A stretch of DNA of 64,000 bases, from the NCBI GenBank assembly GCA_039801085.1, contig JBDRTY010000001.1, forward strand, positions 374,852 through 438,851, given 5' to 3'. The translations under genes were made by a program, and so were the position numbers. This document shows positions 33,647 to 40,187 of the stretch, piece after piece; position 1 is the stretch's first letter; each line of letters opens with the position of its first letter. This DNA is from a candidate division WOR-3 bacterium. GTDB lineage: Bacteria > Hydrothermota > Tepidihabitantia > Tepidihabitantales > Tepidihabitantaceae. Under the pieces are notes generated by a model, which saw nothing but the letters and a program-made list of their open reading frames with translations, did no database searches and was not told the origin of the DNA.

Positions 33647-34495
33647 ATGAACTCCACACCCAAGTGTCTGGAATGCGGACTGGAGCAGTGCCGCCGGATT
33701 TACCGGCTGGTCCGGGGTGATGATGACGGCTGGGAGCAGGTTCAGCAGGAGCTGGCGGTGCTCGTGCCGGCACTGGACCTGAGCGAGCCGCCCGGCACCA
33801 TGACCGCAAAACTGCTCGTCCGGACGACGGGACTGCTCGGCACAACCGATCCATTCCGGGAGATAAAGCAGGAGCAGAACCGGCAGGCGGCAGAGCTGGC
33901 GGTGACGCTGGATGGACAGCTGGGCAGGGATGAAGCCGGGCTGAGGCGGGCGATGATGCTTGCCGCAGCCGGCAATGTGCTTGATGTCGGGCCCGGACAG
34001 AAATTTGACCTCAACACACTGCTTGATTCGCTCCGGTTTGCCCATGACGACTCAGAAAAACTGATTGAGCGTTTAAGGCGGGTCCGCCGGGTAATGTATA
34101 TCCTGGACAACTGCGGTGAGGTGATGTTTGACCGGCTGGTGCTCAGCCGGCTGCCCCGGACTGAGCTGACAATTGTTGCCCGCTCATCTCCAATCCTCAA
34201 CGATGTCACGGTTGAAGAGGCGGTGGCGCTCGGGCTGGGTGAATTCGGCAGGGTCATCGGCACCGGCTCGCCCTACCTCGGGATTGACTTCCAGACTGTG
34301 AGTCCTGAGTTCCGCGCTGCCTATGAGCAGGCGGAGCTGGTGATTGCCAAGGGCCACGCCAATTTTGAGGCGCTGGTGGACGGACCGCGGGACGGGTTCT
34401 ATCTTCTGACCGCCAAGTGTGAACTGGTCGCAGACCGGCTCGGGGTCGGGCTGGGTCAGTCGGTCTGCTACTATTCAGCAGGGGCCGGGAGGTAG
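33647..34495 (+). CDS. DUF89/ARMT1-like damage-control phosphatase
   Basis: A protein of 282 residues. The subfamily CxxC at the N terminus (CLECGLEQCRR) and the metal-site motifs are seen: AAAGNVLDVG, YILDNCGEVMFDRL (Asp-Asn of the DUF89 core) and IAKGHANFEAL. DUF89 proteins are metal-dependent phosphatases that hydrolyse sugar phosphates and damaged phosphometabolites. This short subfamily is found in archaea and anaerobic bacteria. It starts 2 bp after the previous gene and ends directly before hypC, so all four genes from arcC are one operon. Confidence 0.88.
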   Translation: MNSTPKCLECGLEQCRRIYRLVRGDDDGWEQVQQELAVLVPALDLSEPPGTMTAKLLVRTTGLLGTTDPFREIKQEQNRQAAELAVTLDGQLGRDEAGLRRAMMLAAAGNVLDVGPGQKFDLNTLLDSLRFAHDDSEKLIERLRRVRRVMYILDNCGEVMFDRLVLSRLPRTELTIVARSSPILNDVTVEEAVALGLGEFGRVIGTGSPYLGIDFQTVSPEFRAAYEQAELVIAKGHANFEALVDGPRDGFYLLTAKCELVADRLGVGLGQSVCYYSAGAGR

Positions 34496-34496
34496 T

Positions 34497-34751
34497 ATGT
34501 GCCTGGCGATTCCGGTCCGGATTGTCCGGATTGAAGGTGAGACCGCAATTGGTGAGGTGGGCGGGGTGGAGCGTGAGGTTTCGCTTGTCATGACCCCGGA
34601 GGCAAAGGTGGGTGATTATGTCATCGTCCATGCCGGGTTTGCGATTCAGATTCTGGACCGGCAGGCGGCAGAGGAGACGCGTCAGCTCTTTGACCGGATG
34701 GCGCAGGCAGTTCAGGAGCGGCGCCAGCGGGCGAAGAGAAAGACCGGTTAG
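34497..34751 (+). CDS. hypC: Hydrogenase assembly chaperone HypC/HybG
   Basis: A protein of 84 residues from ATG 34497 (after GGGAGGTAGT), as the essential N-terminal Met-Cys (MCLAIPVRIVRI) must be exposed. HypC holds the Fe(CN)2CO unit with HypD during [NiFe]-hydrogenase maturation, bound through that Cys. Conserved segment: VGDYVIVHAGFAIQILD. A short Arg/Gln-rich tail follows. Last gene of the arcC operon; its end overlaps the convergent propeller gene by 4 bp. Confidence 0.95.
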   Translation: MCLAIPVRIVRIEGETAIGEVGGVEREVSLVMTPEAKVGDYVIVHAGFAIQILDRQAAEETRQLFDRMAQAVQERRQRAKRKTG

Positions 34752-36874
34752 CGGACGACCAGTTTCGCCCGGAGCGCCTGAGGTTCAAGCCGGATAAAGT
34801 AGACGCCGGGTTGCAGGTTCAAAGGGAAAATCGTGAATTCCTCCTTATTCCTGTTAGTGGTGGTGATGCTTGTGGATAGCACACAGCCGCCGGCGATATT
34901 GAAAATCTTTATCTTTTCAAGCACCAGATGGGTGGGCAGCGCCTTAATCCCCAGCTTTCTGGCACCCGGCAGGTAGTAAACAAGCGGGCAGCCGGACCGG
35001 CCCGGTTCGGTAACCTCGCCGATTCCCGGTCCCGGACCGTAGTATTCAAGAATATACCATCCCTCTTCATCTGCCACATAAATCCGGTGGTTGCGGACAC
35101 GCAGCCGGCAGGCAAAGGTCGGGGTGATGTAATAGCCCACCTCTACGGGCATCAGGGTCTGGGAGACATCGATCGCCCGGACGCCATCAAGTCCGGTGGC
35201 GACAAAGGCGATATTGTGCTCAAGCTCAAAGTCATAACCGTAATCCGGGGTCAGGTAATAGGTCAGCCATACCGGGTTTGCCGGGTCCGAGATGTCAAAT
35301 ACAAGCAGACCGTAGCCACCTGAAAAGAACGCATAGGGATAGCGTATCTCTACCCGTTCGAGACTGGCGGTAGTGTCGCATTTTCCCAGAAAAACCGGGT
35401 TTGCCGGGCTGGAAATGTCAAAGGTCCTCATTCCCGCATCCTGCTCAGCGGTAACAAGCAGGTTTCCGTAAACGGCACAACCGGCAAAGTCCTGATTTCG
35501 CTGTCGGGGAATCCGGCTGATGATTACGGGGTTTGCGGGATCAGCAACATTGACAATCAGCAGACGATTTCCCCCAATAAAGAGCAGACTGTCTTTGAGC
35601 AAGAGTCTGCCTGCCGGTGTGTCAAGCGTGGCGATGAGTTCCGGGTTTTCAGGATCACGGACATTCAGAACCATCAGTCCCGGTGCGGTGTTACAGGCAA
35701 CATAGGCGATGGTATCGTGAATCAGAATGTCTTTTACCCGTTTCTCCGGGGCATAATGGGTGCAGAGACGGGGCTGGTGCGGATCGGCTGCATCGTAGAT
35801 CATAATGCCGTTATATCGGGGTGCAGTAAACACATAACTGTCGGCAACAGCAATACCTTCCGTATGTGTATGAAATCCGGTCATCCTGCCCAGAATCTCC
35901 GGGTTTGCTGGATCAGAGATGTCAATTACCAGAAGCGTGTCCAGAAAATATCTGCCCAGAGTGTCTTCGGTGATGCAGAACAGGCGGTTGTGGTATACCG
36001 CTGATGTCCCGGTGCGATTAACCGTTGCAATCAGACGGGGTGAGACGGGGTTGGCGATGTTGAAGATGCGCGTCTTTGGCGGCAATCCGCCTTCAATTGC
36101 CAGTGCCAGCGTTTCGTTGAAGATTGTCACCTTCCTGGCATAGCTCCCGGGTATTGAGCAGATCTCCGCCGGCTGGCGGGGATTGGCAATGTTCCAGAGC
36201 CGTAGCCCTGAATTATACCAGGCAATGAGGGCAACCGTATCCTTAACCGCTATTGAGACCGCCGGTCTGGGCAGGCGGTGATTAAATACCAGCTCCGGCC
36301 GGGCAGGGTTGGCGATATTAATGACATTGAAGCCGCCGAGCCAGTTGACCACATAGGCAAAAGAATCCTTTACTTCAACATCATAAGTTGTGTAGGGCAA
36401 ATCCAGACTGCCGGCTTCACGAGGATGAAAAGGATCGGAGTAATCAATAATCCGCAAGCCTGCTTCATAGCAGGCAACATAGGCGTAGGGAAAGGCAAGG
36501 GTGCATCCTCGGGGAATATCGGGAGTAAGATAGTTACTGATCAGCCGGGGGGATTTTTGCTGAGCGATATTGTAAAGGCTGATGCCGGATTTGAATTCCG
36601 GGGAAAGCAGGAATGTGTCAGTAATTGAGGAGTAAGAGCCGGGTGCTCCGGGCCAGACCGGTGAGGTAAAGGAATCCAGTTTGACGGGGGTCTGCGGGGT
36701 TGAAACATCGACGATATAAGCAGCCCAGCCTGCGTTTACATAGATGATGCTATCAGATACCGGAATGATATTATAAGTTACGGAAAAGGGCCAGCCGCCG
36801 AGCAGACGGATATTGGCTGAGTCCCGCATCTGAAGCGTAAAAATAAAAGATAGTAAAATAATCTGAGAGCCCAT
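34748..36874 (-). CDS. Secreted LVIVD-repeat propeller protein with sorting module
   Basis: A protein of 708 residues. A short hydrophobic N terminus (GSQIILLSFIFTLQM) acts as signal. About twelve repeats follow with the LVIVD hallmark, such as GLRIIDYSDPFHPREAG, LLVIDISDPANPEILG and LMVLNVRDPENPELIA. The last 85 residues hold the sorting-like module (IFNIAGGCVL, LQPGVYFIRLEP, AKLVVR). It is the second gene of a cassette with the small secreted protein at 36922-37482, separated by an 11-bp hairpin. No Shine-Dalgarno is seen between the hairpin and the ATG. Surface-located; ligand unknown. Confidence 0.86.
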   Translation of the reverse strand: MGSQIILLSFIFTLQMRDSANIRLLGGWPFSVTYNIIPVSDSIIYVNAGWAAYIVDVSTPQTPVKLDSFTSPVWPGAPGSYSSITDTFLLSPEFKSGISLYNIAQQKSPRLISNYLTPDIPRGCTLAFPYAYVACYEAGLRIIDYSDPFHPREAGSLDLPYTTYDVEVKDSFAYVVNWLGGFNVINIANPARPELVFNHRLPRPAVSIAVKDTVALIAWYNSGLRLWNIANPRQPAEICSIPGSYARKVTIFNETLALAIEGGLPPKTRIFNIANPVSPRLIATVNRTGTSAVYHNRLFCITEDTLGRYFLDTLLVIDISDPANPEILGRMTGFHTHTEGIAVADSYVFTAPRYNGIMIYDAADPHQPRLCTHYAPEKRVKDILIHDTIAYVACNTAPGLMVLNVRDPENPELIATLDTPAGRLLLKDSLLFIGGNRLLIVNVADPANPVIISRIPRQRNQDFAGCAVYGNLLVTAEQDAGMRTFDISSPANPVFLGKCDTTASLERVEIRYPYAFFSGGYGLLVFDISDPANPVWLTYYLTPDYGYDFELEHNIAFVATGLDGVRAIDVSQTLMPVEVGYYITPTFACRLRVRNHRIYVADEEGWYILEYYGPGPGIGEVTEPGRSGCPLVYYLPGARKLGIKALPTHLVLEKIKIFNIAGGCVLSTSITTTNRNKEEFTIFPLNLQPGVYFIRLEPQALRAKLVVR

Positions 36875-36921: not shown

Positions 36922-37482
36922 TTACCAGCTGATCGCATCGCCTCTCAGGCAGGGATCAATAAAGATTTGAGATTTTTCCGGTCTGTAGGGGACTTCAGTT
37001 AGATAAGTGGGGGAGAAAACCGTTCCGGTTGCCCATTCAGGAGGCGGAAAGGGACCGGGTTGGGTAATTGGCGGTGTTTCAATCCGATCCTTGGGAATCC
37101 AGCGCAGTGCCTTGATATAATAGTAATGATCCCATGGTATTGAGTGATAAGGGATATTCCGGTTGTGGACATAATAGGCGGTATGAATGGACCAGTAGGT
37201 GTGGACCCACGCATTGATGCCGGAATCATCTTTTGCCTGTGCATATACCCAGGAGTAGTCGGCAGGTTGCCTGTTGGGCCAGTGAACCAGTTCCTGAATT
37301 CCTTCCGGCCTTGGTTCTGGAGGATAATATTCTGGGCATACTGAAGTGCCAATCTGTATATCACCGTTTGTAATCTCCTGCTGCATTTCCTGATAGAAGG
37401 TCAGCTCAGGGTTGATGGCGATTGCCGTGCCGGCAATCAGCAGGGCTGCCAGAAAGGCAACCAGCAGTTTCGGGTATGACAT
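36922..37482 (-). CDS. Small secreted protein, cassette paralogue 1
   Basis: A protein of 186 residues from ATG 37482 (GAAAGGAGCAGAG upstream). The signal peptide SYPKLLVAFLAALLIAGTAIA is identical in DNA and protein to that of the gene at 39123-39596. The mature part is unrelated in sequence: it is Pro/Trp/Tyr-rich (RWIPKDRIETPPITQPGP) and has two Cys (VCPEYYPPEPR and DPCLRG) that could form a disulfide. No known domain. First gene of a two-gene unit with the LVIVD propeller. Confidence 0.75.
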   Translation of the reverse strand: MSYPKLLVAFLAALLIAGTAIAINPELTFYQEMQQEITNGDIQIGTSVCPEYYPPEPRPEGIQELVHWPNRQPADYSWVYAQAKDDSGINAWVHTYWSIHTAYYVHNRNIPYHSIPWDHYYYIKALRWIPKDRIETPPITQPGPFPPPEWATGTVFSPTYLTEVPYRPEKSQIFIDPCLRGDAISW

Positions 37483-37569
37483 CTCTGCTCCTTTCACAGT
37501 CAGACCACTGCCTTGCTGACTGCAGGCAGATTATAATAAACTCGCTCTCTCTCCTGTCAAGCGGTCCTG
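37417..37569 (-). repeat. Duplicated promoter + RBS + signal-peptide cassette, copy 1
   Basis: These 153 bp match 39531-39683 (offset 2114) with one mismatch seen. The block starts just past the stop of the neighbouring upstream-lying gene and ends exactly where the two signal peptides end, so it carries promoter, leader, Shine-Dalgarno and the first 22 codons but nothing of the mature proteins. Confidence 0.92.
37530..37560 (-). promoter_or_regulatory. Promoter of cassette 1
   Basis: Minus strand: TTGACA (37560-37555), then either TATTAT (37538-37533, spacer 16) or TATAAT (37535-37530, spacer 19). A leader of about 45 nt with AAAGGAG follows. Confidence 0.7.
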
Positions 37570-37572
37570 TGG

Positions 37573-39114
37573 TCAGTTGCCGACAATGAATTTGGCGGAA
37601 ATGGGGCGAATGCCGTTTTTAAGACGCAGCTGGACAAAGTAGACGCCGGGTCTGATGCTGGTAAGCTGGAGCTGGTGCCCGGTAATGGTTCCGGTCTGCA
37701 GGAGTCTGCCCGAGCTGTCAAAGAGCCGGACCTCACCGGTTTCTGCCGGCAGATCAAGCACCGCACCGGGACGCACCGGGTTGGGCAGGAGGAGAGAAGG
37801 GTTTGAGGCGGTCGCTGGCTTTTCGGTAATCCCCGGTCCGGTTGGCGGATACTTGATTGTGCACCAGTCGTAATCGTATGCCTGCCGGGTGCCGGTGATG
37901 ACAAATCCGGTGGTGATGACATTGTCCTCGTTGTCAATCGCCAGCGCATAGATCCAGCCGGCGATACTGTCCGGGCTGACATACCTTGCCTCCCAGACAA
38001 GGTTGCCCTCCGGGTCATATTTAATCAGCGTGTAATCATCTCCCCAGTAGATGCCGACAGTATCCCTCGGTCCCTGGCTCCAGCCACCGACATAGACATT
38101 GCCCCGGCTGTCAACACCGATGGCAAAGGGGTAGTCATCACCGATTGTGTCGTTGTAGCGCCGTTCCCAGAGCCGGGTGCCGTCAGGAGTGTATTTGATG
38201 GTCAGGAAGTCGAAGGAGGGCATGATGCCGGCGCGGCGGGCGCTCGGACCGGTGACATAGCAGTTGCCCTGGGCATCAATATCCAGGCTCTGACCGATGT
38301 CGTAGCCCGGTCCGTCATAGACATCCCACCAGAGCTCCTGCCCCTGGCTGTTGAGTTTTACGGTGTAAACCGCCTGATAGTAGGGCAGGGATCCGGTTGC
38401 ATAGACATCGCCGGCGGGTGTTGCCTTAACTTTGAAGGCATAACCTGAGACCTGCTGGTAACGCCAGAGCAGTTCTCCATCCGGGCTGTATTTAAGTATC
38501 ATAAACATTGCATCTCTGCTATACCCGGCGGTATAAACATTGCCGGCACTGTCCAGTGCAATGCTTACGGTGTGCCATCCTATTGAATCGATAGCGGTCC
38601 ACAGATCATGCCCGGCCGAATCGTATTTGATAGTAATGGCAAAACTCGGATCAGCACCAATGCTTCCCGTAGTATACACACAGTTCTGCCGGTCAACGGT
38701 GATATCGCTGCCCCCTGGAGTTCGTACCCAGGCGATATTACCATATTTATCGTATTTTACAGTGCCTCTGTCCCCGGTTACATAGGCGTTGCCCGATGAG
38801 TCGGCAGCAATCGCACTGGCAAAGCCGGGTCCAAGAAGCCGGACCCAGTGGCGGGTTCCATCCGGTCCGTATTTCATGGTGCAGTAGTAGGAGGTAGTAT
38901 CACCGTTACTTTCAATTATACCGGCATGGCCGGTAAGGAGCACATTGCCCTCTGGATCAAGGGCAACCGCCATTGACTTGTCCCATGCGTGGGAGGGTCC
39001 GTCATAGGTCCGGACCCAGAGCTGGGCAGACAGCGGTCCGGTCAGCATCAGCGGGAGCAGGAGCAGGCCGGTGACTATGAGTTTTTTCCGACCGTCCTGC
39101 TCCCGCAAGCGCAT
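37573..39114 (-). CDS. Secreted SBBP-repeat propeller protein with sorting module
   Basis: A protein of 513 residues. A signal peptide lies at residues about 10-30 (LIVTGLLLLPLMLTGPLSA). Ten or so repeats carry the SBBP pattern, DSSGNAYVTG, DSAGNVYTAGYS, DAQGNCYVTGPS, DSRGNVYVGGWS, each joined to a TIKYDPDG-type strand. The C-terminal module (LFDSSGRLLQTGTI, IRPGVYFVQL, AKFIVGN) is the sorting-like domain. It is 8 bp downstream of the small secreted gene at 39123-39596, with AGGAAAG as ribosome site, and forms a cassette with it. Confidence 0.87.
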   Translation of the reverse strand: MRLREQDGRKKLIVTGLLLLPLMLTGPLSAQLWVRTYDGPSHAWDKSMAVALDPEGNVLLTGHAGIIESNGDTTSYYCTMKYGPDGTRHWVRLLGPGFASAIAADSSGNAYVTGDRGTVKYDKYGNIAWVRTPGGSDITVDRQNCVYTTGSIGADPSFAITIKYDSAGHDLWTAIDSIGWHTVSIALDSAGNVYTAGYSRDAMFMILKYSPDGELLWRYQQVSGYAFKVKATPAGDVYATGSLPYYQAVYTVKLNSQGQELWWDVYDGPGYDIGQSLDIDAQGNCYVTGPSARRAGIMPSFDFLTIKYTPDGTRLWERRYNDTIGDDYPFAIGVDSRGNVYVGGWSQGPRDTVGIYWGDDYTLIKYDPEGNLVWEARYVSPDSIAGWIYALAIDNEDNVITTGFVITGTRQAYDYDWCTIKYPPTGPGITEKPATASNPSLLLPNPVRPGAVLDLPAETGEVRLFDSSGRLLQTGTITGHQLQLTSIRPGVYFVQLRLKNGIRPISAKFIVGN

Positions 39115-39122
39115 CTTTCCTG

Positions 39123-39596
39123 CTATTCCTGAGTGTAATACGGTGGAATCGGGTCGGGCGGTGAGGTGCGGGTCAGATAGAGGAAGTCGTAATCATAACG
39201 GTTGTCAGGAGAATAGATCATCTCCTTGCTCCAGTCGCTGTAATAGGTGGTGCCGTTAATTTCCTTGTAGGCATAGAACCGCCAGCGATACCGGCCATCA
39301 CAGGGAATGGCATATCCGGGTGGAATAATTTCCTGTCGGGCAAACCGACAGGTGTTGTAGTTTGGGGGATACTCACTCTGACCATTCGGTCCGGTATAGC
39401 CGGTGATGTAGTGTGATGCCCGCTGGTTTGCAGAGTAGATATCATAGACATAGGCGGCGACATAGGATGATTCAGGTAAGCCAGAACGGAGTGTATACAG
39501 GAACAACCCTTCGGGTGTGGGGTTGTCGTTGGCGATTGCCGTGCCGGCAATCAGCAGGGCTGCCAGAAAGGCAACCAGCAGTTTCGGGTATGACAT
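39123..39596 (-). CDS. Small secreted protein, cassette paralogue 2
   Basis: A protein of 157 residues from ATG 39596. The N-terminal 22 codons are the duplicated signal peptide shared with 36922-37482. The mature part is Tyr/Pro/Asn-rich with a Cys pair (NTCRFARQE and AIPCDGRYRW) and contains a fibronectin-like stretch (YRWRFYAYKEINGTTYYSDWS). No recognised family. First gene of a unit with the SBBP propeller. Confidence 0.75.
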   Translation of the reverse strand: MSYPKLLVAFLAALLIAGTAIANDNPTPEGLFLYTLRSGLPESSYVAAYVYDIYSANQRASHYITGYTGPNGQSEYPPNYNTCRFARQEIIPPGYAIPCDGRYRWRFYAYKEINGTTYYSDWSKEMIYSPDNRYDYDFLYLTRTSPPDPIPPYYTQE

Positions 39597-39683
39597 CTCT
39601 GCTCCTTTCACAGTCAGACCACTACCTTGCTGACTGCAGGCAGATTATAATAAACTCGCTCTCTCTCCTGTCAAGCGGTCCTG
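39531..39683 (-). repeat. Duplicated promoter + RBS + signal-peptide cassette, copy 2
   Basis: Partner of 37417-37569 (offset 2114). Confidence 0.92.
39644..39674 (-). promoter_or_regulatory. Promoter of cassette 2
   Basis: Same boxes as cassette 1: TTGACA at 39674-39669 and TATTAT or TATAAT at 39652-39644 on the minus strand. Confidence 0.7.
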
Positions 39684-39689
39684 GTTTTT

Positions 39690-40187
39690 TCAGCAGACCG
39701 GCTCAATCAGTCCTTCGCTGCCTTCCTCCTGCTTCTGGGCGATGGTGGCGATGATCTTTGCCGCATCGGCAGCGGTCGGAGCGTTGAGCGCCAGACGCCG
39801 GACCGGTTCCAGATGCAGGGCCCGGGCAAGGGCGGCGAGCACCTGCAGGTAGACCGAATAAAGGGAGGGTGGGGAGATCAGGGCGACCACGAGGCTGACC
39901 GGCTCGTTGTCCCGGGCATGCCAGTCCAGCGCCGGATTGACCCGGGTGACGACCACGACAATCCGGTCAACCGCATCGGTGGCGGAGTGGGGCAGGGCAA
40001 CACCATGGCCGACACCGGTTGAGCACAGCTCCTCCCGCTTGCGGAAGCCTTCAATCAGCGAGTCATGGTCGGTGGTGATGCCGGCACTGAGCAGGCGGTC
40101 GGCGATCAGGCCAAACAGCTGCTCCTGGGTGCCAACCGGCGGAGCATCAAAGGCAAGCTCGGGCAGGACAATATCCTTCAGGTTCAT
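39690..40187 (-). CDS. PTS EIIA (fructose/nitrogen-type) domain protein
   Basis: A protein of 165 residues, a stand-alone EIIA-2 domain. The phosphorylatable His is His67 in GVGHGVALPHSAT, with His61 as the supporting residue. Stand-alone EIIA proteins of this type (PtsN-like) are usually regulators rather than transporters, phosphorylated from EI/HPr. No other PTS gene is in the window. It overlaps the aminotransferase gene by 4 bp (ATGA) and is cotranscribed with it. Confidence 0.88.
   Translation of the reverse strand: MNLKDIVLPELAFDAPPVGTQEQLFGLIADRLLSAGITTDHDSLIEGFRKREELCSTGVGHGVALPHSATDAVDRIVVVVTRVNPALDWHARDNEPVSLVVALISPPSLYSVYLQVLAALARALHLEPVRRLALNAPTAADAAKIIATIAQKQEEGSEGLIEPVC

Follow-up and report, generated by a model that had tools for sequence, protein, structure and literature searches.

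The interval between a PTS EIIA gene and a HypC-like gene, in the 64,000-nucleotide stretch of WOR-3 DNA analyzed here (the window), is probably an occupied insertion site for surface-protein cassettes, at which bodies would be added, removed and replaced by homologous recombination between constant ends. Two cassettes lie there, each consisting of a small secreted protein gene followed by the gene of a large beta-propeller protein (Table 1). Sequence comparison shows constant ends, differing bodies at one site, a hybrid tail and empty sites; since leaders and tails are shared, the bodies differ and the sites are empty in relatives, the bodies appear to have been exchanged, gained or lost between the constant ends.

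Table 1. Coordinates of the two cassettes, their shared elements and the flanking genes, in positions of the window.
Feature	Position	Strand	Evidence
Constant 5' block copy 1, cassette 1 (promoter, leader, RBS, signal peptide)	39530..39683	-	sequence comparison
Constant 5' block copy 2, cassette 2	37416..37569	-	one mismatch to copy 1
Promoter 1: TTGACA, 19-bp GA-repeat spacer, TATAAT	39644..39674	-	pattern search
Promoter 2: TTGACA, 19-bp GA-repeat spacer, TATAAT	37530..37560	-	pattern search
5' leader hairpin 1, abutting AAAGGAG (39602-39608)	39609..39638	-	covariation in 9 leaders
5' leader hairpin 2, abutting AAAGGAG (37488-37494)	37495..37524	-	covariation in 9 leaders
Small secreted protein A, 157 aa; signal peptide 39531-39596	39123..39596	-	ORF
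SBBP beta-propeller, T9SS type A sorting tail residues 444-502	37573..39114	-	PF06739 3e-20; TIGR04183 31.3 bits, cutoff 23
Small secreted protein B, 186 aa; signal peptide 37417-37482	36922..37482	-	ORF
LVIVD beta-propeller, C-terminal sorting-like tail	34748..36874	-	TIGR04183 20.6 bits, below cutoff 23
Sorting-tail segment common to SBBP and G001 LVIVD propeller, 86% over 165 bp	37628..37792	-	sequence comparison
24-bp repeat (PGVYF codons), 92% to 37628-37651; crossover point implied by G001 hybrid tail	34788..34811	-	sequence comparison
Flank: PTS EIIA gene	39690..40187	-	domain match; directly beside HypC in G002, G003, G009, L120 (empty site)
Flank: HypC-like gene, convergent to cassettes	34419..34751	+	ORF

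The two copies of the 5' block are direct repeats on the minus strand that match over 154 bp with a single mismatch (39624/37510; E=2e-75 within the region). A preliminary description of this DNA had reported near-identical blocks of 153 bp with one mismatch, running from the -35 region to the end of the signal peptide, in ORFs of 157 and 186 residues, and all of this was borne out, the match beginning upstream of the -35 box. The order within the block is TTGACA, a 19-bp spacer (GGAGAGAGAGCGAGTTTAT), TATAAT, the leader, AAAGGAG-CAGAG-ATG and a 22-codon signal peptide. At its 3' limit the block reaches one base into the mature part, past the 22-aa signal peptide, while its 5' limit falls 7 bp past the EIIA stop codon in copy 1 and 4 bp past the SBBP stop codon in copy 2. 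The block in front of cassette 2 is probably a recent copy of the 5' end of cassette 1. Further copies had been proposed as a check; at high identity the host genome holds only these two, both in the window, but related leaders lie at four further host places, three of them before small secreted genes.

Behind the signal peptides the proteins are unrelated, as had been proposed: a profile comparison of A and B gave a probability of 19.6% with the alignment mainly on the shared signal peptide, and A and B have separate sets of homologues elsewhere. The locus is thus no plain tandem duplication of homologous genes, the mature parts being not alignable and belonging to separate families. The small secreted proteins tested had no Pfam or NCBIfam match in the searches made, and the predicted structures of A and B (mean pLDDT 50 and 36) were too poor to use. 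A viral origin of A was also considered and rejected, as a scan of viral contigs yielded no relative. Domain matches confirmed that a different propeller, SBBP or LVIVD, follows each small gene. The same pairing recurs elsewhere: family A is followed by an SBBP propeller three times in the window genome (G000) and in G003 and G027, family B by an LVIVD propeller in G000, G002, G011, G016 and G022, and family C by another LVIVD propeller in G001, G003 and G009; in G009 and G002 a fourth family, D, precedes a 586-589-aa protein without family assignment. In each of families A, B and C the small protein is found with its cognate propeller in different genera, so the exchanged unit would be the pair of small protein and propeller. 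The earlier proposal of a swap behind a constant expression block therefore stands as regards the block, but the unit is a two-gene body, not a mature domain. Four of the five propellers tested score above the TIGR04183 cutoff of 23 (the window SBBP protein at 31.3, the G001 LVIVD protein at 27.8 and two G009 propellers at 56.3 and 54.4), the window LVIVD protein falling just below it at 20.6. In the literature searched, no paper linked WOR-3 with type IX secretion.

Several members of these families are damaged. Mid-gene frameshifts split the ORFs of an A paralogue (L027:8463-8960; G000:C1:315474-315943) and of a B homologue in G002 (L030:17643-18150; contig C29). The intact D-type arrangement, a 112-aa secreted protein ending in SIEPIE and a 586-aa protein without Pfam or NCBIfam match (L053:1745-3849), recurs in G002, and decayed forms of it occur in G000 and G001. 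In these last two genomes the D-type cassette lies at what is apparently the same site (G000:C1:244656-244720, L052; G001:C12:108162, L103), with the small gene frameshifted and the downstream gene seemingly disrupted, so that these cassettes look to be decaying with the leader still conserved.

Between EIIA and HypC there are two cassettes in the window, one in G001, a sister species, and none in G002, G003, G009 or L120, G002 being of the same genus as the window genome. At the position where the window has A and its SBBP propeller, G001 carries a family C gene and its LVIVD propeller. From EIIA toward the start codon of the small gene the two genomes are 91% identical, with 93% in the leader; past the start codon the bodies are completely different until the shared sorting-tail segment, and past the tail the sequences align at 88.5% into HypC. 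The constant part had been described as including export, which holds for the window pair with its shared signal peptide, but the start codon is as far as the constant part extends in G001 and G009, and a cassette defined by the signal peptide only is ruled out on the same ground.

The tail of the G001 propeller is a hybrid. It follows the tail of the first window propeller up to PGVYF and then the end of the second (94% over the last 64 bp), the two parts being joined at the 24-bp repeat. In the window the two parts of the ancestral tail thus lie on different propellers, the outcome expected from one crossover at PGVYF; either a cassette circle could have integrated in the window lineage, or G001 could have undergone a deletion. 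The window's own two tails have no similarity beyond the 24 bp, so that its two cassettes differ at their 3' ends; as a constant 3' end, the sorting tail would be a feature of the individual site.

The serious rival is an ordinary tandem array with differential loss, in which an ancestral set of several cassettes was thinned out by deletion between repeats, leaving different ones in G000 and in G001, and no DNA came in from outside. It relies on the same repeats as the exchange of bodies: tandem arrays do exist in G000 and G009, and the geometry of the hybrid tail in G001 is exactly that of a deletion between the two 24-bp repeats. However, it presupposes that at least three bodies once stood together at a site where the same-genus G002, like all the other relatives checked, has none, and the distribution of the families (C absent from G000, A and B absent from G001) goes against it, as does the GC content of the bodies, 49-57% against 60-61% in the flanks of the window site. 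We consider this explanation rather unlikely, though with a real share of the probability. The events are few, G000 against G001 at the EIIA/HypC site plus G009 elsewhere, and since one assembly per species was sampled, exchange or repeat change within a population would go unseen.

An independent case is provided by G009, from a second genus, where a tandem pair of cassettes occurs. The similarity of the two leaders sets in 87 bp before the -35 box and lasts to the start codon, with 89.9% identity overall and 97% between the -10 box and the RBS; the spacer is the main difference. The genes of the unrelated SBBP and LVIVD propellers behind them are 98.6% identical over their C-terminal 222 bp, from the start of the sorting domain to the stop codon. 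No other copy of this 222-bp tail was found in the six genomes searched. Together with the different gene pair behind a 93% identical leader in G001, the G009 pair supports the suggestion of the preliminary description that the locus may diversify surface genes by recombination behind a constant block. The same two observations weigh against a one-off gene conversion or local duplication, by which the 5' end of A would have overwritten the promoter and signal peptide of a pre-existing B with no cassette behavior involved: G009 shows the pattern independently and with both ends shared, and G001 bears a different body behind the same leader. Although the 99% identical copies number only two in the genome and the B homologue of G002 has its own leader and signal peptide, both of which favor such an event, we regard it as improbable. 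Least credible of all is a chimeric metagenome join that made the second block or the tandem order, for while G001 is recorded as a WOR-3 MAG (SKW181), the window genome with its 7 contigs may be one too, and near-identical repeats of 150 bp are a risk in short-read assembly, the site is embedded in a contig of 935 kb and its flanks are collinear with G001, the signal peptide of B is joined in frame, and the G009 case comes from another genome.

Two other cassettes of the host genome also differ in G001. The one at 315386 is missing there (120 bp against 2336 bp, with flanks at 89 and 92%), and the one at 257740 is replaced (2232 bp against 2272 bp, flanks at 91 and 89%), the replacement being an unrelated gene for a 401-aa protein with UspA1/beta-roll-like repeats (L111:3370-4575).

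The block belongs to a family of about 15 leaders, spread over five genomes, that share a plan of TTGACA, a spacer of 8-22 bp with a GA, GT or AGT repeat, TATAAT, a covarying hairpin and AAAGGAG, most of them preceding a small secreted protein with a large partner, usually a propeller with a T9SS sorting tail. A pattern indifferent to the spacer (TTGACA-N-TATAAT-N-GTGAAANGAG) hit the host genome at five places and three relatives at four in all, while the reversed control gave no match. A covariance model built from nine leaders added G000:C2:456500, G001:C12:108162 and G009:C3:5690 at E<1e-3, and a pattern for the repeat spacer gave three more in G002, one of which the covariance model also found. 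The hairpin lies just before the RBS; across the nine leaders 98.6% of cells are paired, four of the eight pairs are changed on both sides, 0 of 500 shuffles reached the covariation score, and the folds of single sequences agree for most leaders. No Rfam family matched the leader in the region. Neither the hairpin nor the spacer repeat nor a constant 3' end had figured in the preliminary description; all three were found here.

A simple repeat, (GA)n, (GT)n or (AGT)n, stands between the -35 and -10 boxes in nearly every leader, and dinucleotide runs of at least 9 bp in 18 stretches (about 318 kb) fall within leader spacers in 11 of 13 cases, a count biased by the inclusion of L030, L054 and L055, whose leaders came through the repeat pattern. 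Spacer lengths are 8, 10, 11, 14, 14, 14, 15, 15, 17, 19, 19, 19, 19, 22 and 22 bp. They differ within three otherwise similar pairs of leaders, at the EIIA site of G000 and G001 (19 and 15), in the G009 tandem pair (22 and 10) and in the D leader of G000 and G001 (14 and 11); in the window pair they are equal (19 bp each). As the usual optimum between -35 and -10 is 17 bp, many of these promoters would be weak or off, and changes in repeat number would probably switch them on and off. The leaders nearest to the window pair are each other and that of G001, not those of the A paralogues. Pooled identities of leaders from the same genome (0.66) and from the same family (0.70) do not separate, and only nearest neighbors at the level of the site do. 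Leaders elsewhere in the host genome are only about 60-70% identical to one another, and recent exchange with them is therefore unsupported.

Two of the repeat promoters stand before genes of another kind. At G000:C2:456500 (L102:8501-12000) the repeat promoter and hairpin are followed by a short ORF, a radical SAM/SPASM peptide maturase (CcpM/RumMC-like) and a transporter-like ORF, probably a RiPP locus under the same type of leader, so that the leader is not limited to propeller operons. At G002:C25:25795 (L054) the first gene behind the repeat promoter encodes 95 aa (MANNSTYGVLNTKNFQQLLDD...) that lack a clear signal peptide, possibly a peptide precursor, and the next a 508-aa protein.

By analogy, the nearest precedent in mechanism is the displacement of Rhs C-terminal tips, in which homologous recombination swaps and stacks variable segments that follow a conserved part, the proposed route being a circular intermediate and a single crossover (PMC2935791). 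The likeness lies in different bodies at one site beside conserved sequence, and the circle and single-crossover geometry would also fit the split tail. Here, however, the constancy extends to both ends, the body comprises two genes in an operon that has its own start, and the products are surface propellers, not toxins; partial copies downstream, silent or displaced, were not seen, since in both G000 and G009 the second copy is a full cassette with its own promoter. Because these defining features differ, we do not file the locus as Rhs. In the sap S-layer genes of Campylobacter fetus, a conserved 5' region lets recombination place different proteins behind one expression signal, with one promoter and inversion within a resident family, whereas here each cassette has its promoter, no inversion was seen and the bodies come from unrelated families. 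A site-specific inversion system, such as a shufflon or an invertible promoter, was rejected, since the blocks are direct repeats and no recombinase occurs among the cassette genes. For the promoters, the parallel is hifA/hifB of H. influenzae, where the length of a (TA)n repeat between -35 and -10 alters the spacing and gives phase variation (PMC2651432). The repeat-in-spacer architecture is the same; here the repeat is GA, GT or AGT and occurs at several loci per genome in spacers of 8-22 bp. The leader hairpin is comparable in position to the mRNA-stabilizing 5' UTR stem-loop of ompA, near the 5' end and just upstream of the Shine-Dalgarno sequence, though its sequence is unrelated. Such stem-loops protect mRNA (reviewed in PMC7509114). 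The hairpin here would likewise protect or tune the mRNA.

Put together, the cassette at the EIIA/HypC site would begin with a sigma-70-like promoter whose -35 and -10 boxes enclose a simple repeat, followed by a hairpin leader, a strong RBS and, in the window, the signal peptide. Its body would be a small secreted protein with its cognate large protein (in the window a beta-propeller), and the sorting tail would form its 3' end. As neither a recombinase nor a mobile element was found among the cassette genes, the route of exchange is one that we infer, namely RecA-type homologous recombination. More tentatively, and with the odds somewhat against so broad a statement, surface diversification in WOR-3 might combine the exchange of operon bodies between promoter-leader and T9SS sorting-tail ends with phase-variable repeat promoters for each cassette, so that repertoire and expression would both be varied. 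Most known examples of surfaces that vary through recombination or through promoter repeats come from pathogens under immune attack. If the proposal is true, both modes of variation, with a T9SS tail as an end of exchange, would operate in an uncultured and probably free-living candidate phylum, which would point to pressure from phages or predators, and a constant leader together with a constant tail would provide a simple recipe to find such systems in metagenomes.
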